Shown piece after piece: positions 14,091 through 25,200 of a stretch of 64,000 nt of DNA. Positions within the stretch are counted from its first letter, which is position 1; every line of letters starts with the position of its first letter. The notes under the pieces were generated by a model, which did not search any database, was not told the DNA's origin, and saw only the letters and a list, made by a program, of their open reading frames with translations. The DNA is from Archangium violaceum (GTDB taxonomy: Bacteria > Myxococcota > Myxococcia > Myxococcales > Myxococcaceae): positions 2,754,501 to 2,818,500 of the forward strand of contig NZ_CP069338.1 of the NCBI RefSeq assembly GCF_016859125.1, read 5' to 3'. Both the position numbers and the translations under genes were made by a program.

Positions 14091-14345
14091 CACTGTCCGT
14101 ATTTTATTGGTGCTTCTGAAATACCTGGACTGAGCAATTCAGAACTGCTATCTCGCGCACCGTCGACGAGTGGACAACACCTCTCGTTGATGGGGGGACG
14201 ATGGCAGCCGGAATCCGGGCAACAACCAGACGGGCAGAAAGCAATGCCTCGTCATGCGGTACGCCCAGCCGAGTGCCGTCACGGCCGGTCTCATCCCCCG
14301 TGATTGCCAGGCGGCGCATCCGCCTGCGCCAAAGGAAAGACAGCT

Positions 14346-16004
14346 ATGCATCGTCGTACCTATGGACTGTTCAAGCTGGCCGTCTCGGTGCTCGCGAGCT
14401 CGTGGGCCCTGGGCTGTGGAGGTCCCGCCACCGAAGAATCGCAGCCCACCACCGGTGAGCGGTTCGCCTCGCGCAAGGATCCCTCGTACATCCACAACAG
14501 CAGCGCGTGGCCCATGAGCAATGGCGTGGCCAGCATCCCCGTATGCTGGGACAGCACCGGCTTCGACGTCGAGAAAGGCTGGGTGCGCAGCGTCGTCGAG
14601 TCGCGCTTCGAGGGGCAGCCGTTCTTCCACGTGAACTTCACCGGCTGGGGCCAGTGCGGCTTGTTCTCTTCGGGCATCCGTATCCAGATTTCCGACACCA
14701 CGTCCGACAACCACCCGCGAGTGAAGGCACTGGGCAAAGGGTTGGACGGCATGGCCAATGGCATGGTGCTCAACTTCACCTTCAACAACTGGAGCTACAA
14801 CAGCTGCAACGCGGCGGAGGTGGGAGATTCGAGGCGGCGCTACTGCATCGAGGCCATCGGCATGCACGAGTTCGGCCATGCCCTGAGTCTGGCCCACGAG
14901 CAGAACCGGGGAGACAAGCCGTCGAGCTGCACGGACTCGCCGCAGGGCTCCACCAACGGCGACATGTACGTGGGCAACTTCGACCAGGGCTCGCTCATGG
15001 CCTACTGCAACCCGACGTGGAACAACGGGGGCAATCTGAGCCAGGGTGACGTGGCCGGCCTGGCGCGCCTGTACGGCGGTGGCGGCGACGTCTTCGTGGG
15101 CAGTTCCACCGGCTCTGGCTTTTCCAGCGGCCAGGCCCGCCACGACGGCTTCTGCATCGGCAACGAGGTCTGCCTCACCGGTGACTTCAATGGTGACGGC
15201 CGGCAGGACCTGGTGACCTTCACGCGAGGCACTGCCCATGAGGTCTATGTCGCGCTCTCCACCGGCACCGGCTTCAACGGCAGCGGCTGGCTGTGGCACG
15301 ACGACTTCGCCTACGACGGCGAGACCCCGCGCGTGGGAGATGTCAACGGCGACGGCATGGATGACATCATCACCTTCACGCACAGCCCCGCCAATGACGT
15401 CTATGTCGCGCTCTCCACCGGCTCCAGCTTCGGCGGCGCCGGGCTGTGGCACGACGACTTCGCCTACTCTGGCGAGACGCCCGAGGTGGGAGACGTCAAC
15501 GGCGACGGCAAGGATGACATCATCACCTTCACGCACAGCCCCGCCAATGACGTCTATGTCGCGCTCTCCACCGGCTCCAGCTTCGGCGGCGCCGGGCTGT
15601 GGCACGACGACTTCGCCTACACTGGCGAGACGCCGAAGGTGGGCGACTTCAACGGTGACGGCCGCGACGACATCGTCACCTTCACCCATGGCTCCGCCAG
15701 TGACGTGTACGTGGCCCTGTCCACCGGCTCCAGCTTTGGCGGCGCCGGGCTGTGGCACAGCGACTTTGCCTACAACGGCGAGATTCCGGCTGTGAGCGAC
15801 GTGAATGGTGACGGCCGCGATGACATCGTCACCTTCGTGCGCGGCAGCCAGGGCACGGTGTACGCAGCCACCTCCAGCGGCTTGAGCTTCGACGGCTATA
15901 GCTGGCTGTGGAGCACCGGCATCTGCCTCGCGCAGGATGTGTGTGCGGTGGCGGACGTGACGGGTGACGGCCGCGCCGACGCCATCGGCTTCAAGCGTAA
16001 CTGA
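14346..16004 (+). CDS. Zinc metalloprotease lipoprotein with FG-GAP repeats
   Basis: 552 residues; ATG at 14346 with AGGAAAG upstream. A lipobox (WALGCGG) places the lipidated Cys at about residue 24. The catalytic motif [11 protein letters not shown] (His at about 174, 178 and 184) is the HExxHxxGxxH-type metzincin site with a Leu-Ala variation before the last His, as in matrixin/astacin-like myxobacterial proteases. Residues about 250-550 are repeats with Asp-rich calcium-like loops ([18 protein letters not shown]) of the FG-GAP/VCBS type. They have a 51-residue period and parts are identical at DNA level. Probably an exported protease used on prey or matrix. Confidence 0.85.
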
Positions 16005-16455: not shown

Positions 16456-17343
16456 TCAGGCCTCCACCGGAGGAGGCACGCGGCGCGCGGTGAGCGCGGC
16501 CCCCGCGGACGCGGCGCTCACGAACACCAGCGCGAGCCACTGCGTCACCGTGAGCTGCTCGCGCAAGAACACCAGGCCAGCGAGCGCCGCGACCGCGGGC
16601 TCCAGACTCATCAGGATGCCAAAGGTGCGGCTCGGCAGGACTCGCAGCGCCATCATCTCCAACGTGTACGGCACCGCACTGGAGAGGAGCGCGACGGCCA
16701 GGCCGGCCGCGAACAACGGAGGCGTGAGGCGTACCGCGAGGCCCTCCGCGAATGAAAAGGGCAGCACCGTCAGGGCCCCGAACAACATTCCCGTCGCGAC
16801 GCTCTGCCCTCCCGGAAACACCCTGGACACGCGCCCGCCGAGCACGATGTACGCCGCCCAGCACGCACCCGCGAAGAGCGCCAGCAGCACACCCAGCACG
16901 TCGAGCGAGCCCACCCCCCCACGCCATGGGGTGATGAGGGCGATGCCCACCGCCGCGAGCAGCGCCCACAGGAAGTCCGAGGCGCGCCGCGACCCGAACA
17001 CCGCGAGCGCCAGGGGCCCCACGAACTCCAGCGTGACGGCCAGTCCCAGCGGGATGCGCTCGAGCGCCTTGTAGAAGCTCAAATTCATCGTGCCGAGCAC
17101 CACCCCATACGGGATGACCACGACCCACTGCGCGCGCGTGAGCCGAGCGAGCGGCGGACGGAACACCGTGAGCAGAATGAGCGCGGACAGCCCGATGCGC
17201 AGGCCCGCCGTGCCCGCCGAGCCGAGCACCGGGAACAGCTCCTTCGCGAAGGCGGCGCCACCCTGCACGCTCACCACGGCGAGGAGCACCGCCGGAATGG
17301 GAGGCAGGGTCAGGGGAGGACGAACCGAGGAGGCTTCACTCAT
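16456..17343 (-). CDS. EamA/DMT-family exporter (RhtA-like)
   Basis: 295 residues with about ten hydrophobic helices arranged as two EamA repeats, the standard size for this family. The N-terminal repeat starts around residue 13 (IPAVLLAVVSVQGGAAFAKE), and the second has the family-typical ending with LALVFVSAAS near residue 275. Members export amino acids such as threonine and homoserine, or metabolites; the substrate cannot be read from sequence. It is transcribed away from the lipoprotein gene at 17483, leaving a 139-nt shared upstream region. Confidence 0.88.
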   Translation of the reverse strand: MSEASSVRPPLTLPPIPAVLLAVVSVQGGAAFAKELFPVLGSAGTAGLRIGLSALILLTVFRPPLARLTRAQWVVVIPYGVVLGTMNLSFYKALERIPLGLAVTLEFVGPLALAVFGSRRASDFLWALLAAVGIALITPWRGGVGSLDVLGVLLALFAGACWAAYIVLGGRVSRVFPGGQSVATGMLFGALTVLPFSFAEGLAVRLTPPLFAAGLAVALLSSAVPYTLEMMALRVLPSRTFGILMSLEPAVAALAGLVFLREQLTVTQWLALVFVSAASAGAALTARRVPPPVEA

Positions 17344-17482
17344 GCGCGCACCCTAACCGCCCGGTGACGTCGAATGCAGTCACATCAGTTGATTGCAGCC
17401 ATACTGACGAGCATGGGTTCACTGGACGTAGCTCATCCCAAGAGCCGGCTGTGCGTGCGCCGTCCCGGTGTAGCGTCCGGTC

Positions 17483-18073
17483 ATGCTCCGACAGACCCCC
17501 TTCGTCCTCGTCCTCGCGGTCACCACCGTAGCCGGCATGTCCTCCTGCGCGTCCAGCGGCAATCGGAGTCCGGCCAACCCCCTGTGTGACGGGCCTCGTG
17601 GCACCCGGGCCCAACTCCAGACCCCCATCGGCGCCACGGAGGGCCCGAGGATCGACGAGCCGCTCGCGTGCACCAAGGGAGGCAGCGGCATGGATCGCGG
17701 CGCCTATATCCGCGTCCATGGACAGGGGACGCGCCGGCTCGTCATGGAGAGCGCGACTGGCGAGCAGATCTGCGTGCCTCCACCCCAGGCCGCGCCAGAC
17801 GTGTGCCCCCAGGTCCCCGCCGACGCCGTGGGCGCGGAGGTTGGAAGACGGCTCCAGGCGCGCGGAATCGACGTCAACGGAATGGGCGCGGGCGTGTGCG
17901 CCCAACCCGTCGGGCAGGACTTCGACACCTGGAACTACTCGGTCGGCATCACGGACTGGAAGGACGCCGATGCCGCCGTCGCCATCGTCGACGAGGTACT
18001 CCGCGAGTGGGGCATCGGCCACTACTTCGGAATTTCCGTGCGGGGAATCGACTGCACCGCCGTCCCCCTCTGA
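17483..18073 (+). CDS. Small lipoprotein, unknown
   Basis: 196 residues. The signal peptide ends in a lipobox GMSSC, so Cys at about residue 22 is expected to be lipidated. The mature part is polar with several Cys that could form disulfides. I recognise no family. The downstream BlaI-like unit begins after a clear promoter, so the two are probably not co-transcribed. Confidence 0.6.
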   Translation: MLRQTPFVLVLAVTTVAGMSSCASSGNRSPANPLCDGPRGTRAQLQTPIGATEGPRIDEPLACTKGGSGMDRGAYIRVHGQGTRRLVMESATGEQICVPPPQAAPDVCPQVPADAVGAEVGRRLQARGIDVNGMGAGVCAQPVGQDFDTWNYSVGITDWKDADAAVAIVDEVLREWGIGHYFGISVRGIDCTAVPL

Positions 18074-18108
18074 ACGGCGGCCCTTCCCGTCCGGGGCCCA
18101 CCCCATCT

Positions 18109-18149
18109 ACGAAGCCCTTCGTTGACATCTACGAATCGCTTCGTATATT
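18109..18149 (+). promoter_or_regulatory. Promoter with two BlaI-type operators
   Basis: A -35 box TTGACA (18122-18127) and a -10 box TATATT (18144-18149) are 16 nt apart. Palindrome tacgaatcgcttcgta (18130-18145) fills the spacer, and a second, acgaagcccttcgt (18109-18122), overlaps the -35 box. The layout is that of an autoregulated BlaI/MecI operator. It precedes the start at 18181 by about 31 nt. Confidence 0.85.
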
Positions 18150-18180
18150 TCTCCCATCGAAGCTGACGGGAGGGAGTGCG

Positions 18181-18573
18181 ATGAGTGAACCGAAGCTGCC
18201 GCGTCCGACGGACGCGGAGCTGGGCATCCTGCAGGTGTTGTGGGAGCGAGGCCCGCGCACGGTGCGCGAGGTGCACGAGGCCTTGAACAAGGGCCCGGAC
18301 GGCACGGGCTACACCACGGTGCTCAAGCTGATGCAGATCATGACCGACAAGGGGCTCGTGCAGCGCGATGAGTCCCAACGGGCGCACGTGTACACCGCGC
18401 GAGCCACGCAGCAGAAGACGCAGCGGCAGCTCGTGACGGAGCTGCTGGACCGGGCGTTCGGCGGCTCGCCCGCCCAGCTCGCCATGCAGGCGTTGTCGAC
18501 GAAGAAGGCCTCGGCCGAGGAGCTCGCCGAGCTGCGCAAGCTGCTGGACACCCTCGAGGAGGAGAAGCCATGA
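18181..18573 (+). CDS. BlaI/MecI/CopY-family repressor
   Basis: 130 residues, the family length. A winged helix fills residues about 8-80 (PTDAELGILQVLWERGPRTV, then TTVLKLMQIMTDKGLV), followed by a short helical dimerisation tail. GGGAGGGAG is just upstream of the ATG. The gene overlaps the following M56 peptidase gene by 4 nt (ATGA), giving a repressor-protease pair. In this family the partner peptidase or its signal removes the repressor from palindromes such as those at 18109-18145. That mechanism is family knowledge. Confidence 0.95.
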   Translation: MSEPKLPRPTDAELGILQVLWERGPRTVREVHEALNKGPDGTGYTTVLKLMQIMTDKGLVQRDESQRAHVYTARATQQKTQRQLVTELLDRAFGGSPAQLAMQALSTKKASAEELAELRKLLDTLEEEKP

Positions 18574-20606
18574 GCGGAGCCGTGTCGCAGTCCCTGGGCT
18601 GGGCGTTGCTGCATCTCCTCTGGCAGGGAGCACTCGTGGCAGGGGCGCTGGCCGTGGCCCTGCGCGTGCTCGATCGTCGCGCGGCCTCCGTGCGCTACCT
18701 GCTGGCCTGTGGCGCGCTGACGCTGATGCTCGTGCTGCCCGCGCTCACCGGCTGGCGGCACTACACCTCCCTCCAGAAGGAGGAGCCGCTCCCCGAGGCC
18801 TCCGCTCCGGTGATGCTCCACACCCGCGAGCCGGTGAGCGCTCCCGTCCCCACGCTGACGCCGCGCGCCGCCGAGCCCACGCCCGTGCTGGAGCGGGCGT
18901 TGTCGCGGGTGGGCGAGCACATGCACTGGCTGGTGCTCGCGTGGGGACTGGGCGTGGCCGTGTCGTCGCTGCGGCTGCTCTCGGGGTGGCTGAAGCTGCG
19001 CCGCCTGGTGCGTGAGGCCGAGCCCGCGCCCACCGAGTGGCAGGAGGCGCTGGAGAAGCTGTCCCAACGCCTCGGCCTGACGCGTCCGGTGCGGCTGCTG
19101 CGCTCGGCGGCGCTGGACGTGCCCGCGGCGGTGGGCTGGCTGCGGCCGGTGGTGCTGCTGCCGGTGACGGCGCTCACCGGGCTGTCGGCGCGTCAGCTCG
19201 AGATGGTGCTGGCGCACGAGCTGGCCCACATCCGCCGCCACGACTTCGTGGTGAACCTGGTGCAGACGCTGGTGGAGACGCTCCTCTTCTACCACCCGGC
19301 GGTGTGGTGGATGTCGCGCGTCATCCGCGTCGAGCGCGAGCACTGCTGCGACGACATCGCCGTGGGTACGAGCGGCAACGCGGTCTCCTACGCCCGCGCC
19401 CTCACCGCGCTGGAGTCCCTGCGCGTGATGCCCCTCGAGGCGTCGAGCCCGGCGATGTCCGCCCTGGGTGGCTCGCTCACGGACCGCGTCCGCCGGCTGG
19501 TGGTCGCCCCCGCGGCGCGCTGCTCCTCGCGGTGGGTGGCGGGCGCCTCGGTCGTCACGCTGATGAGCGGCGCGGCGGTGGCGGCGCCCCTGGCGGCCCT
19601 CGTCCTCCCCGAGCGTCCCGCGGCCACGGCCGAGGCTCCCGCGCCCCTGGCCCCCCCGAGCGCTCCGCTCGCGGCCAAGGGCCCCGCCTCCCTCCCGGCT
19701 TCCGAGCGGGAGGTGGAATCCTTCGCCCAGGGCGTGGTCGCCACCGTGGTGCCGGGCGTCCTGTCCGCGCTCTCCGCCCAGGGTCCGGCGCTGGCGCGGA
19801 ACATCCTCGCCCAGGCTCCGGCGCCCGCTCCGATTCCCGTGCCCGTGCCGAAGCCGGTGGGCGCCGGCAAGCGAGGCGACGACAAGGACGAGGACACCAC
19901 CCGCGTGGGCGACAAGCAGCTCTCGGTGGATCAGCTCGTCGCGCTCAAGGTGGCCGGTGTCACCCCGGAGCGCGTGAAGGAGCTGGAGTCGCTCGGCTAC
20001 GAGCCCACGGTGGAGAACCTGGTGCAGCTCGGCCACGCCCACGTGACGCCCGGGTTCGCCAGGGAGATGACGGGCCTGCTGGGCCGCAAGCCCACCGCCG
20101 ACGAGCTGGTGGAGATGCGGCACCTTGGCGTGACGACCGAGCGCGTGAAGGCACTCGGGGCGGCCGGGTACGGCAAGCTCTCCGCGGACGGACTCACGCA
20201 GGCGGCGGCGCTCGGCGTGGACGAGCGCTTCATCAACGAGCTGAAGGCCGCCGGCTACGACACGCTGTCCTTCGACGACCTCATCGAGCTGCGAGCCCTC
20301 GGGGTGAATGGCCCATTCGTCCAGGGGCTGAAGGCCGCGGGCTACGACAAGCTCCCGGCGGACGAGCTGGTGCAGTTCAAGGCGCTCGGCGTGACCCCGG
20401 AGTACCTCCGCTCGCTGCGCGAGGCCGGGCTGGACAAGCTCCCCGCGGAGGACGTGGTGCAACTGCGCGCGCTCGGCGTGGACGCGGGCTTCATCCGCAA
20501 GCTGCGCGACGAGGGGTTGGACAAGCTCTCCGTCGATGAGCTCGTCCGCCTGCGCACCAGTGGCGTGGACGCGGACTTCATCCGCGAGCTGCGCAAGAAG
20601 CAGTAA
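18570..20606 (+). CDS. M56 (BlaR1-like) membrane peptidase with C-terminal 29-residue repeats
   Basis: 678 residues. N-terminal helices (LGWALLHLLWQGALVAGALA and others) lead to the M56 zinc site HELAH at residues 216-220 and the downstream EREHCCDD. A Pro/Ala linker (about 350-430) precedes about 7.7 repeats of 29 residues, each of the pattern (L/V)(V/I)xL(+)xxGVTPxxVxxL near residues 450-678. The repeats probably bind a ligand or a partner outside the cytoplasm, replacing the penicillin-binding sensor of BlaR1. The start overlaps the stop of blaI-like gene. This is a sensor-protease rather than a beta-lactam receptor as far as can be seen. Confidence 0.88.
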   Translation: MSGAVSQSLGWALLHLLWQGALVAGALAVALRVLDRRAASVRYLLACGALTLMLVLPALTGWRHYTSLQKEEPLPEASAPVMLHTREPVSAPVPTLTPRAAEPTPVLERALSRVGEHMHWLVLAWGLGVAVSSLRLLSGWLKLRRLVREAEPAPTEWQEALEKLSQRLGLTRPVRLLRSAALDVPAAVGWLRPVVLLPVTALTGLSARQLEMVLAHELAHIRRHDFVVNLVQTLVETLLFYHPAVWWMSRVIRVEREHCCDDIAVGTSGNAVSYARALTALESLRVMPLEASSPAMSALGGSLTDRVRRLVVAPAARCSSRWVAGASVVTLMSGAAVAAPLAALVLPERPAATAEAPAPLAPPSAPLAAKGPASLPASEREVESFAQGVVATVVPGVLSALSAQGPALARNILAQAPAPAPIPVPVPKPVGAGKRGDDKDEDTTRVGDKQLSVDQLVALKVAGVTPERVKELESLGYEPTVENLVQLGHAHVTPGFAREMTGLLGRKPTADELVEMRHLGVTTERVKALGAAGYGKLSADGLTQAAALGVDERFINELKAAGYDTLSFDDLIELRALGVNGPFVQGLKAAGYDKLPADELVQFKALGVTPEYLRSLREAGLDKLPAEDVVQLRALGVDAGFIRKLRDEGLDKLSVDELVRLRTSGVDADFIRELRKKQ

Positions 20607-20695
20607 CCCGCCGTTCCCATCCCCTCACCTCCCACGGGCCCACGGCCGCGCTCCCCGCGCGCGCCGCCGGGCCTCCTTTTGCCCGAGATCGAACC

Positions 20696-21490
20696 ATGCG
20701 AATCCCCAGGAATCCCATTCCCCTCTTCGCCGCCGTGCTGCTGTGGACCCTCTCCGCGCTGGCCGCCTCGCCGAACACCGGCACGTGGACGGCCACGGCG
20801 CGCGAGGACAAGCTGAATCTGAGCTTCCGCTTCGAGGAGCGAAGCCAGATGGGCCTCACCGTTCCCCGCTCCGCCTTCCAGGGGTTGAACACCGCGGACG
20901 GGGCGGACACGAAGTTCCAGCTCGTGCGCGAGGCGGGCACGCTGAACTTCGAGGGCCGCTTCTCCGGCGGTGAGGGCGCGGGCCACTACCAGTTCGCCCC
21001 CAGTGCCTCGTACCGCCAGGAGATGGCGAAGCTCGGGTACACGGAGATTTCTCCGCTCGAGCAGCTCCAGCTCGCGATCTTCGACGTGGGGCCGGCCCGG
21101 GTGAAGGCGTTGGCGGAGCTCGGCTACACGAAGATGTCTCACGACCAGTTGCTCCAGGTGGCCATCTTCCAGGTGACGCCCGAGCACATCCGCGAGCTCG
21201 CCGGGTTGGGCTACCTCAAGCTGACCTTCGACGAGCTGCTGTCCACGCGCATCCACCGCATCACACCCCAGTTCATCAGTGAGGCAAAGGGCCTGGGGCT
21301 CGGCGAGCTCTCCCTGGAGGACCTGCTGACGATGCGCATCCACCGCGTCACCCCCGAGTACGTTCGGGAAATCCGGGAGGCCGGCTACCCGGACGTCACG
21401 CTCAAGCAACTCGTGGAGATGCGCATCCACGCAATCGACGCGAATTACGTCCGTTCCCTCTCCAGGAATAAGAATACGCGCGGGAAGTAA
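20696..21490 (+). CDS. Secreted protein with the same 29-residue repeats
   Basis: 264 residues with a signal peptide (PIPLFAAVLLWTLSALAAS). After a short N-terminal domain of about 70 residues, roughly five 29-residue repeats (such as VTPEHIRELAGLGYLKLTFD) fill the rest. They resemble those at the C-terminus of the upstream M56 protein, so the two likely act together or bind the same thing. It follows by 89 nt in the same direction, perhaps in the same operon. No enzyme motif is visible. Confidence 0.7.
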   Translation: MRIPRNPIPLFAAVLLWTLSALAASPNTGTWTATAREDKLNLSFRFEERSQMGLTVPRSAFQGLNTADGADTKFQLVREAGTLNFEGRFSGGEGAGHYQFAPSASYRQEMAKLGYTEISPLEQLQLAIFDVGPARVKALAELGYTKMSHDQLLQVAIFQVTPEHIRELAGLGYLKLTFDELLSTRIHRITPQFISEAKGLGLGELSLEDLLTMRIHRVTPEYVREIREAGYPDVTLKQLVEMRIHAIDANYVRSLSRNKNTRGK

Positions 21491-21524
21491 TAGCGGCCCG
21501 ACGCTCCGGAGGGGGGTCTCTCAC

Positions 21525-24092
21525 ATGCTGCGCGAATGGACATTGATAACCGGAGTCGTGTGGGCGGGGATGGCGTCGGCGGCCGTCGAGGGACCGGGCC
21601 GCAACCAGTTCATCCACGCGGCGCGGACGAGCGGTCCGGTGGTGGTGGACGGCCGGCTGGACGAGGACACCTGGGCGAAGGCGCCCGTCTTCGACGGCTT
21701 CGTGCAGCGCTTCCCCGAGGCGGGCAAGGCCCCCAGCGAGCGCACCGAACTGCGCGTCCTCCACGATGACCGCAACCTCTACGTCGCCATCACCTGCCAC
21801 GACTCCGAGCCCGCGCTCCTCAACCGCAACCTGGGGCGCCGGGACAGCGATCTGTACTCGGACCGGGTGAAGGTGCTGGTGGATCCAACGCATGATCACC
21901 GCACGGCCTACGTCTTCACGGTGAACGCGGGAGGGGTGCAGTCGGATGGCCTCTACTACGACGATCGCAATTACACCGAGGACTGGGATGGGGTGTGGGA
22001 CGCGGCGGTGGGCACTACCGGGAAGGGCTGGGTGGCCGAGCTCGCGATTCCCCTGTCGCTGCTGCGATTCCCCGAGACCCCCGTGCAGACGTGGGGGTTC
22101 TCGGTGCGCCGGGACATCGCGCGCCGCAACGAGGAACTGGAGACGGTGCTCAACCCGCGCACCAGCAACGCGGTGGTGTCGCGCCTGGGACACCTGACGG
22201 GGATGGAGAACCTGCGGCCCCAGAGAGCGGTGGAGCTGGTGCCGTACCTGGCGGCGCGCACGCTGGCCCGGCCCCAGTTCTCCGACGCGGAGAGACCCTG
22301 GCCCCGGCTGGTGGACCCGTCGATGGACCTGGGGTTGGACTTCCGCCTGGCCCTCACCAGCAACCTGGCGCTGACGGGCACCGTCAACCCGGACTTCGGC
22401 CAGGTGGAGGCGGACGAGCTCATCCTCAACCTGTCCACCTTCGAGACCTTCTTCCCGGAGAAACGCACCTTCTTCACGCAGGGGATGGAGCTGTTCAACC
22501 AGGTGGGCGGAGAGGGGATGCCGCAGACGCTCTTCTACTCGCGGCGCATCGGGCTGGGGACGCCCATCCTCGGCGCGGCGAAGCTGACGGGCACGGTGGC
22601 CGAGGGCGTGGAGGTGGGCCTGCTGGACGCGGTCGTCACCGGCCCCTGGCAACGGGACGTGGACGAGGCGCGACCGGACCGGAACGTGGGCCTGTACCTG
22701 ACGCGTCCGCTGCACCTGGGCCCCAACAACGCGCTGCCCACGAAGCCGGAGGTGCCCATGAACTACCTGGCCGCGGTGGTGCGCGGAAAGGTGGGCGCGA
22801 GCTCGCGCGTGGGGGGCATGGTGACGATGGCCACGCCCCTCATCGGTGGCTGCACGCGGGAGGACGCGGCGCTCGACGAGGACGAGCAACCGGTCCCGTG
22901 CCTGGCCCGGGGCGGAAACGCCGCGGCGGTGGACTTCGACCTGAAGACGGCGGACGGGAAGTACGGGCTGATGGGGCAGGTGGACGGCTCGCAGGTGGTG
23001 GGAGGCCTGCCCGAGCGCACGCTGCGGGATGGCACCGTGCTGCGCCGGGGGGACATGGGCTTCGGTGGCTACGTGCGAGCGGGGAAGTACGGAGGCGAGG
23101 GCTTCCGCTGGGACGTGGGCTACGACTTCACCTCGCCCCGGCTGGACCTCAATCCCAGCGGCTTCCTGCGCACGCAGAACGAGCACGCGCCGCGCGCCGC
23201 GCTGCACTACCAGCGCCCCGATGGCATGGGGCCACTGAAGTCCTACTCCGCCCACCTCTCCGGAGGCTCGCGCTGGACGACGGATGGACGGAACCTCGAG
23301 CGGGGAAGCTGGATCAACTTCAACACGGTCGCGCAGCTGCCGAGCTTCGACTCCGTCGGACTGGAGATGGGCGCGGACTTCGGCGGATGGAACGTGCGCG
23401 AGCTGGAGGGCTCGGGCGTGCCGCTGGAGAACGAGGACATGGCCTTCCTGGCGCTCATCGTGGAGAGCAACGAGAACCGGCCGGTGTCGGCGGGAGGCTA
23501 CGTGTTGGCGGCGCGCCACTTCCAGGCGGGCCCGGTGGCTCCGTCCTGGGGCTGGACGACGGAGCTGTATGGGACGGTGCGGCCACACCCGGCGCTGGAG
23601 ACGCGGCTGGAGCTGCTCCTGGATCGCACCACCACCGCGCCGCGCTTCATCGAGGACAGGGGTGACGACCGCTTCCTGCTGAGCCCCTTGCTGTCGGACA
23701 CGCTGTCGCTGACGCTGCGGCAGCAGTGGGTGGTGACTCCGCGGCTGACGCTCCAGGCCTACGCGCAGCTCTTCACGGCCTATGGCGCCTACGGCACGTA
23801 TTACGAGGGCGTGTCCGACGCGAGGCGCTCGCCCATCCGCTTCAGCAGCCTGGTGCCGGTGGAGCACGAAAACACGGACGACTTCCACGACGTGGGGCTG
23901 AACCTGAACGTGGTGCTGCGCTGGGAGTACCGGTTGGGCTCGACGCTGTACGTGGTGTACACGCACGGACAGCAGCGCCTGCCGGTGGCGGACGGCGTGC
24001 GGCCACCGCACTCTCTGATGCCACACGGGTTGCTGGCGGGCGCGGCCAACGACGCGCTGATGTTGAAATGGTCCTGGTACTGGGGCGCGTGA
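21525..24092 (+). CDS. DUF5916 protein with CBM9-like N-terminal domain
   Basis: 855 residues with a signal peptide (LITGVVWAGMASAA). Residues about 20-200 match the family-9-like carbohydrate-binding domain of DUF5916 proteins (VVDGRLDEDTWAKAPVFDGF, RTELRVLHDDRNLYVAITCH). The rest is a large beta-rich region of the DUF5916 type that is predicted to be an outer-membrane barrel. In other bacteria these proteins sit in the outer membrane; the ligand is unknown. GGAGGGGGG lies upstream of the start. Confidence 0.82.
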   Translation: MLREWTLITGVVWAGMASAAVEGPGRNQFIHAARTSGPVVVDGRLDEDTWAKAPVFDGFVQRFPEAGKAPSERTELRVLHDDRNLYVAITCHDSEPALLNRNLGRRDSDLYSDRVKVLVDPTHDHRTAYVFTVNAGGVQSDGLYYDDRNYTEDWDGVWDAAVGTTGKGWVAELAIPLSLLRFPETPVQTWGFSVRRDIARRNEELETVLNPRTSNAVVSRLGHLTGMENLRPQRAVELVPYLAARTLARPQFSDAERPWPRLVDPSMDLGLDFRLALTSNLALTGTVNPDFGQVEADELILNLSTFETFFPEKRTFFTQGMELFNQVGGEGMPQTLFYSRRIGLGTPILGAAKLTGTVAEGVEVGLLDAVVTGPWQRDVDEARPDRNVGLYLTRPLHLGPNNALPTKPEVPMNYLAAVVRGKVGASSRVGGMVTMATPLIGGCTREDAALDEDEQPVPCLARGGNAAAVDFDLKTADGKYGLMGQVDGSQVVGGLPERTLRDGTVLRRGDMGFGGYVRAGKYGGEGFRWDVGYDFTSPRLDLNPSGFLRTQNEHAPRAALHYQRPDGMGPLKSYSAHLSGGSRWTTDGRNLERGSWINFNTVAQLPSFDSVGLEMGADFGGWNVRELEGSGVPLENEDMAFLALIVESNENRPVSAGGYVLAARHFQAGPVAPSWGWTTELYGTVRPHPALETRLELLLDRTTTAPRFIEDRGDDRFLLSPLLSDTLSLTLRQQWVVTPRLTLQAYAQLFTAYGAYGTYYEGVSDARRSPIRFSSLVPVEHENTDDFHDVGLNLNVVLRWEYRLGSTLYVVYTHGQQRLPVADGVRPPHSLMPHGLLAGAANDALMLKWSWYWGA

Positions 24093-24210
24093 GCCCGGCT
24101 GGACGAGGTGCGGGCAGCGCGGCATGCCATGTGTCGACCGTGAAAACTCTCGGTGAACAGGGGCGTCATGTCACGGCGCCGTCACATGCGCTGCCTAGGT
24201 TGGCTCAAGT

Positions 24211-25200
24211 ATGGGACCATCGACCTCCAAGTCCGTCCTCGCCGCCATCGACGTGGGAACCAATGCCGTTCGCCTGGAGCTGGCGCGGCCTGTCGATGGC
24301 GCCCTGGAGAGATTGCACAAGGAGCGCGACCCCATCCGCCCGGGAGAGGGCGTCTTCACCAGCGGGAGGATGTCGCGGGAGACGACGGATCGGCTGGTCT
24401 CCACCTTGCGGCGCTATGCGGTGCTGTGCCAGCGGCACGAGGCCCGGGTGCGAGCGGTGGCCACCAGCGCCATGCGGGATGCCAGGAACCAGGCGGAAGT
24501 CGTCCAGCGGGTCCATGACGAGACGGGGCTGAAGCTGGAGGTGGTGAGCGGCGAGGAGGAAGCGCGCCTCATCTGCCTGGGCGTGCTGCATCGCACGCCG
24601 CCGAGGACGCGCTCGCTGCTGGTGGACATGGGTGGAGGCTCCACGGAGGTGGCCCTCGCCACCGGGGAGCGGCCCGATGAGCTGTGGAGCCTGCCGTTGG
24701 GCGCGGTGCGGCTGACGGAGCTCTTCGAGACCTCCGGGAAGGTGTCGCCCGAGCGGCTGCGGCTGATGCGCGGCTACGTGGAGGAGGCGCTGCGCGAGAC
24801 CCTCCCCAGGAACGTCCCCCAGCTGCCTCGGGTGGCGCTGGGCTCCTCTGGCACCATCAAGGCCGTGGTGGGCTTCGCGGCCAGCCGGGGCGGCTCGCAC
24901 GCGTCCGTGAACCAGCTCACGCGCGCGGTGGAGCTGCTGGCGGAGATGACGCCGGAAGAGCGGCACGAGCACTTCGAGCCCCGGCGCGCGGACATCATCG
25001 TCGCGGGCGCCACCCTGCTCGAGTGTGTGCTCCGGTACCTGGGCGTGGAGGGCGTCATCGCCGTCAAGCAGGGCCTGCGCAAGGGCATCCTCGTGGACCT
25101 GCTCTACCGACAGGACGCCGCGAACGAGGCCACCCCGCTGACGGGCGCGGTGCTGGCCGCGAACCAGCGCCGCGCCTTCGACGAGAAGCACGCGCCTTGA
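24211..25200 (+). CDS. Ppx/GppA-family phosphatase
   Basis: 329 residues, the length of a short Ppx/GppA. It has the ASKHA nucleotide-binding signatures AAIDVGTNAVRLE at the N-terminus and VDMGGGSTEVAL near residue 140, plus VSGEEEARLI. Members hydrolyse exopolyphosphate or (p)ppGpp, and many myxobacterial copies are unassigned. It is the left neighbour of the duplicated toxin locus: a 158-nt piece of this gene recurs at 28023-28180, so it was one end of the duplicated segment. Confidence 0.9.
   Translation: MGPSTSKSVLAAIDVGTNAVRLELARPVDGALERLHKERDPIRPGEGVFTSGRMSRETTDRLVSTLRRYAVLCQRHEARVRAVATSAMRDARNQAEVVQRVHDETGLKLEVVSGEEEARLICLGVLHRTPPRTRSLLVDMGGGSTEVALATGERPDELWSLPLGAVRLTELFETSGKVSPERLRLMRGYVEEALRETLPRNVPQLPRVALGSSGTIKAVVGFAASRGGSHASVNQLTRAVELLAEMTPEERHEHFEPRRADIIVAGATLLECVLRYLGVEGVIAVKQGLRKGILVDLLYRQDAANEATPLTGAVLAANQRRAFDEKHAP

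Follow-up and report, generated by a model that had tools for sequence, protein, structure and literature searches.

The 64,000 nucleotide (nt) window analysed here (positions 2,754,501 to 2,818,500 of contig NZ_CP069338.1 of Archangium violaceum, whose 12.68 Mb genome is a single contig) includes three adjacent genes for a BlaI-family repressor, a BlaR1-type M56 membrane metalloprotease ending in a solenoid of 29-residue repeats, and a secreted protein with repeats of the same kind. These genes look like a real but unstudied signalling unit that resembles the penicillin-resistance switch with a different sensor. We anticipate, with a probability of about 0.55, that a BlaI/BlaR1-type proteolytic switch with a helical-solenoid sensor governs a secreted protein that bears the same solenoid and probably shares the ligand of the sensor. 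The BlaI and M56 families are known; the new variation is a solenoid sensor paired with a matching secreted solenoid.

The first gene (18181..18573, on the + strand, as are all genes and sites of the unit given below) encodes a protein of 130 amino acids that matches the Pfam family Penicillinase_R (1.1e-27, 97 bits against a cut-off of 22.6) and also matches solved penicillinase repressor structures. By profile, it is a member of the BlaI/MecI/CopY repressors. The second gene (18570..20606), whose start overlaps the blaI stop by 4 nt, encodes the 678 amino acid M56 protein (Peptidase_M56, 5.7e-33, 114.8 bits against a cut-off of 31). The HELAH zinc motif (19215..19229; H216, E217 and H220) was placed by alignment of 35 M56 sequences, in which these three residues and E257 farther on are invariant. 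Based on the profile, the HExxH motif and the downstream glutamate, the product is an M56 peptidase. Its modelled membrane and protease core superposes on the BlaR1 cryo-EM structure 8exs_A (Z 21.2, root-mean-square deviation (rmsd) 4.0, 256 residues).

The M56 protein differs from BlaR1 beyond its last predicted membrane helix (residues 321-344; 19530..19601; structure model and hydropathy). An Ala/Pro-rich linker (residues 344-436; 19599..19877), predicted to be disordered with a model pLDDT (predicted local distance difference test) under 50, leads to the sensor, a solenoid of eight 29-residue repeats (residues 451-678; 19920..20603; model pLDDT about 97) that is modelled as all-helical with two short helices per repeat. 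At E up to 0.1 the M56 protein gave no match to a penicillin-binding domain, and the blaR1_generic model scores it 85 bits against a cut-off of 400. Because the defining penicillin-binding domain was not found, these profile searches indicate that the protein is not a BlaR1/MecR1 beta-lactam sensor, and the proposal, made in a reading of this DNA from sequence only, that repeats take the place of the beta-lactam sensor holds. By eye, M56 proteins of other genomes (L173, L187, L176, L190) have transglycosylase-like, HEAT-like and TonB-C-like C-termini. Such variety suggests that M56 serves generally as a chassis on which sensors can be exchanged.

The third gene (20696..21490) begins 89 nt after the M56 gene and encodes a 264 amino acid protein with a signal peptide at about residues 1-23, called from hydropathy and not by a dedicated predictor, a beta domain (residues 24-103) and five 29-residue repeats (residues 118-257). 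In the model (pLDDT 92.3) a six-strand beta domain is followed by a solenoid of the same kind as that of the sensor, and the repeats of the two proteins match each other at E 4.5e-19. The sequence-only reading described this protein as made of the same repeats, which is correct for the solenoid but leaves out the first ~117 residues. Searches at E up to 10 did not identify a third repeat-bearing protein in the 12.68 Mb genome. No Pfam or NCBIfam family exceeds its cut-off in either repeat region or anywhere in the secreted protein. In fold searches with the secreted protein, Foldseek gave no match for the beta domain at or below 1e-3, and its best structural candidate, the RpfR FI domain (VIA Z 5.9, 73 residues, rmsd 2.8), is not claimed as its fold. 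These searches bear on the beta domain and hardly on the secreted solenoid, whereas the solenoid of the M56 model was covered by the search described below.

Upstream of blaI are two conserved palindromes that we predict, from sequence alone, to be dyad operators of BlaI at its own promoter. Operator 1, TACGAAGCCCTTCGTT (18108..18123), has one mismatch to the palindrome TACGAANNNNTTCGTA, and operator 2, TACGAATCGCTTCGTA (18130..18145), is a perfect palindrome 22 bp from operator 1. As had been noticed earlier, both overlap the promoter TTGACA-16-TATATT (18122..18149), which has 11/12 consensus matches. In the bla system, too, the promoter lies under paired dyads. This is the sole promoter-like site found in 17900-24400 with both strands searched (shuffles give 0.2), and no terminator-like sites were found on the + strand of the same region. 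The BlaI, M56 and secreted-protein genes, all in one direction, lie behind this one promoter and are apparently switched on together by one repressor. A strong GC-rich hairpin, predicted by single-sequence folding, lies between the M56 and secreted genes (20636-20674), and similar hairpins occur in other myxobacterial copies. There is no Rfam match in 17300-24400, the covariation term is weak (-0.07 over 16 sequences) and we do not claim a functional RNA; the hairpin is perhaps an mRNA processing or stability element.

The operator is rare in the host genome and regularly placed in others. The 12.68 Mb have two places with exact TACGAANNNNTTCGTA, each within a double operator, and the double-operator pattern also occurs at 2 places, with 0 in the reversed control. 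Five more places (L085-L089) carry a single site that departs from the palindrome by one mismatch, compared with one in the reversed control; real operators may be among these five. The other three BlaI homologues of the host have no exact operator. Paired operators 22 bp apart precede 13 of the 15 Myxococcota BlaI-M56-repeat loci, the window counted; the exceptions have a spacing of 21 bp (L042) or one operator (L043).

With 13 secreted proteins as queries, a scan in which each species was represented by a single genome confirmed 102 stretches, and we kept 80 loci. The full trio of BlaI, M56 with repeats and secreted gene, detected with our own profiles and with order and strand kept, is present in 54 of the 80. 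Five more have the M56 with repeats and the secreted gene with BlaI not detected, and in 11 the secreted gene stands alone, with 3.4 kb or more of sequence before it. Eight have short flanks, and in four of these (L094, L105, L108, L170) an upstream repeat open reading frame (ORF) is cut by or near the contig edge. A separate secreted ORF is missing in two loci (L130, L131). In L130 the repeats of the M56 protein itself carry the secreted-type IH signature described below, and no separate secreted gene was detected beside it. By record titles, the full trio occurs in Myxococcota, Acidobacteriota, Latescibacterota, Eisenbacteria, Rhodothermia and Sphingomonadaceae, and the secreted gene alone in two Gemmatimonadota loci and one Actinomadura locus. 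The latter (L135, in a 9.5 Mb record) encodes a secreted-type protein alone, with no M56 match at 1e-10 and a signal peptide not found by our own rule; this copy was possibly acquired by horizontal transfer. A record titled Comamonas (L112) holds a typical myxobacterial copy of the unit and is probably mislabelled or contaminated. Among 119 genomes drawn from the phylum of an Acidobacteria metagenome-assembled genome (G064), the secreted profile has matches at 1e-20 in 16, some via the repeats alone.

Of 52 full-trio loci, 48 have an operator with at most one mismatch in the 250 bp that precede the BlaI domain (43 perfect; two sites in 46); the other two of the 54 (L096, L126) are too close to a contig end to be counted. 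When the secreted gene sits downstream in the unit, none of the 54 loci has an operator within 220 nt upstream of it. Random stretches gave a perfect site in 82 of 4000, a control that overstates the background because some of these stretches overlap true operators. The genes next downstream of the unit outside the myxobacteria, called by a longest-ORF rule, vary and many are on the opposite strand. Thus, the core of the unit consists of three genes.

Genomes in which the secreted gene has moved are natural tests of its regulation. The family sample comprises 96 genomes that are related to each other, and the counts are therefore not independent: 61 have the double operator, 62 the repeat profile and 59 both. 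Operators without repeats occur in G020 and G071, and repeats without the operator in G012, G016 and G085. The secreted gene is present in 60 of the 96, and in 49 of these 60 a double operator lies 2.2-2.9 kb upstream, which is one BlaI-M56 length, with the intervening M56 not read in every one of the 49. In five genomes from two genera (G032, G091 and G092; G093 and G094) the secreted gene is separated from BlaI-M56 by megabases or sits on a different contig, and here a double operator of its own precedes the match by 45-49 nt. The remaining six comprise three with gene and operator on separate contigs and three without the exact pattern. The flanks of the relocated genes are common to G032 and G091 and to G093 and G094 but unrelated between the two groups, so there are at least two locations. 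In G064 (L127), the M56 with repeats is beside one secreted gene, and another secreted gene, located apart from them, has two operators of its own. Co-regulation of the secreted gene with BlaI-M56 is supported by these relocated copies. After separation, the secreted gene and BlaI-M56 each have the operator, and the sequences thus speak against independent expression of the secreted gene. Together with the conserved gene order and operator, the relocated copies give good support, at the level of sequence, to the BlaI/BlaR1-like switch that was first suggested for the window.

The unit has counterparts among characterized systems. It shares with BlaI-BlaR1-BlaZ and MecI-MecR1 of Staphylococcus aureus and Bacillus licheniformis a BlaI-family repressor, an M56 protease with HExxH and a C-terminal extracytoplasmic sensor. 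An excerpt of PMC9834060 describes the BlaR1 sensor as a relative of class D beta-lactamases and BlaR1 as cutting BlaI directly. As in BlaR1, the sensor domain in the window is related to a secreted protein family. Unlike in BlaR1/MecR1, the sensor is a helical solenoid instead of a penicillin-binding domain, the product is a solenoid protein instead of a known enzyme, the operator is TACGAANNNNTTCGTA and the hosts are mainly Gram-negative. An extracytoplasmic sensing module common to secreted proteins is also found in the RsgI/SigI biomass sensors of Clostridium thermocellum; in RsgI6, a GH10 sensing module is 57% identical to Xyn10D (excerpt of PMC4711584). RsgI/SigI is an anti-sigma factor system, in contrast to M56/BlaI, and no sequence relation is claimed. 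By analogy, the system in the window probably works like the BlaR1 and RsgI6 systems.

In such a system, BlaI dimers on the two operators would block the promoter of their own unit. By homology to BlaR1 the sensor faces away from the cytoplasm, which should place both solenoids together in the periplasm or farther out. The sensor solenoid, held in the periplasm by the last membrane helix and the long linker, could bind an envelope or extracellular ligand, and the ligand-bound sensor would release the M56 protease to cleave BlaI and derepress the unit. The main product would be the secreted protein, which with the same solenoid and the beta domain may capture or otherwise act on the same ligand. 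It would relate to the sensor much as a class D beta-lactamase relates to the BlaR1 sensor.

The sequence-only reading left room for the two proteins to bind each other. If the regulation is as above and the secreted solenoid docks on the sensor solenoid, it could be a feedback inhibitor or a co-receptor that brings the ligand. We consider this distinctly less probable than a shared ligand, at perhaps one chance in four. The same repeats, the same compartment as predicted from topology, the tight linkage and the operator common to both genes even after relocation would all fit docking, and feedback by an induced homologous protein is simple wiring. Against it, an M56 with these repeats was not found in 10 of the 11 examined genomes that hold stand-alone secreted genes; eight of the M56 ORFs matched, from seven of these genomes, were read and have other C-termini, and three genomes are without an M56 match at 1e-10. 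Eight of the 11 stand-alone proteins (L127 included) have units that keep the signature His at position 11 of the repeat (50 of 67 units overall), and three (L113, L141, L146) have IF in place of IH. Nor do the paired solenoids look like matched partners in 54 pairs (L147 dropped for masked letters, the window pair added). Electrostatic pairing was rejected, as both solenoids are mildly acidic on average and have opposite sign in only 9 of the 54 pairs, and so was concerted evolution or co-evolution of the repeat sets, for which a unit identity of 0.354 within genomes versus 0.338 between gives no clear signal. Because the secreted protein occurs alone, mostly with its own repeat signature, and charge and within-genome likeness give no partner signal, we prefer a shared ligand. 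With modest confidence, one common ligand is favoured over obligatory docking; a secreted protein that occurs without the sensor is as expected of an effector.

A systematic difference between the repeats raises another alternative. Secreted repeats have IH at positions 10-11 (I 93%, H 83% of 319 units), whereas the sensor repeats vary there (H 10% of 369 units). The secreted protein could thus be mere cargo, with a sensor domain captured once from a secreted protein and the two now seeing different things. The other C-terminal domains of M56 proteins elsewhere, which make domain exchange look common, agree with this. We nevertheless regard it as unlikely, given that the pairing persists across phyla and the operator is retained after relocation.

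A bolder version of the shared-ligand reading is that the secreted solenoid reads a linear polymer, for instance a strand of glycan or peptidoglycan, one unit at a time, and that the M56-tethered copy reports the polymer by destroying BlaI. Receptor and decoy would then be the same reader, in a widespread and unnamed signalling class. We hold this as speculation with a small chance of being right. Secreted solenoids do vary in length, with 3 to 9 units detected per protein by a profile that undercounts (3 of 5 repeats recovered in the secreted protein of the window).

The solenoids also recall TALE-like and mTERF helical-hairpin repeats, which have two short helices per ~30-residue unit in a superhelix. 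TALE-like repeats have 33-35 residues and a base-reading loop; those of the window have 29 residues, are secreted and acidic on average, and show weak fold and profile likeness to TALE repeats. The M56 model matches TALE/BurrH chains at VIA Z 6-7 and a chain of 7odr, which we take to be mTERF-like (the match gives the entry title alone), at 5.8, and the profile of the secreted protein hits TALE repeats with E values from 1e-8 to 1e-5. A relation to these DNA-binding repeats, with nucleic acid bound outside the cytoplasm, is nonetheless very improbable, since Z under 13 for repeats may mean a mere common arrangement (rmsd 9-12 Å), the M56 profile also matches IcmE and designed PPR repeats, as is typical of chance among repeat proteins, and both solenoids are net acidic on average. 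We do not claim the homology, for which the matches are too weak, and keep it as a weak lead.

Several observations weigh against the shared-ligand switch that we prefer. Given the different residues at positions 10-11, identical ligand contacts are not guaranteed, and the repeat numbers of the two proteins correlate weakly (r 0.32, 59 pairs). Four of the 52 full loci (L116, L117, L134, L161) lack the operator near BlaI, and two genomes (G019, G033) have the M56 with repeats without the secreted gene, which counts against docking as well. The same operator also lies upstream of a BlaI-M56 pair without these repeats (G020, L084), hence it marks BlaI and not the repeat pairing. Such pairs have the same repressor and protease core with other or short C-terminal domains, and an adjacent matching secreted protein was not seen in L084. 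The relatedness of the 96 family genomes further reduces the weight of their counts.

The regulon may extend beyond the core to a CBM9/DUF5916 protein in some myxobacteria and, in two genomes from the genus of the window, to a secreted serine hydrolase of PF00144. The gene for a DUF5916 protein with an N-terminal CBM9-like domain (21525..24092, + strand) starts 34 nt after the secreted gene. Nine fetched loci, each from Myxococcota, likewise have it next to the unit (L091 is the same locus as L037, leaving eight besides the window), as do L227 and L228. In G021, G075 and G103 (L082, L223, L224) a DUF5916 gene is found ~130-320 nt behind a double operator of its own. The second double operator of the host genome (L080 8309-9805; G000 C1 about 3005308) precedes a secreted serine hydrolase of PF00144 (E 2.1e-83), the beta-lactamase/DD-peptidase family, and such a hydrolase is behind a double operator in G003 too. 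Further double operators were seen in G021 (L083 7859-7896) and G075 (C9 119815); that of G021 precedes an ORF whose apparent signal peptide runs into a DEAD-box helicase frame. Upstream of the unit in the window are an ORF (14304-16004) with a zinc-protease motif of the HExxH type and FG-GAP-like repeats, as judged by eye from its translation, and a small secreted or lipoprotein-like ORF (17483-18073) with no Pfam family at E up to 0.1.

We found no description of this unit in the titles and abstract openings of the papers listed for BlaI, BlaR1, M56 or DUF5916 (lists of at most 8 or 20), a coverage outside which most subscription journals lie. If our reading is true, the BlaR1 rule that the sensor is homologous to a secreted product extends to a repeat protein, in mainly Gram-negative bacteria and across phyla. 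The unit would then offer a regulon with natural relocation experiments, and its uniform operator a handle for hunting the signal by reporter.

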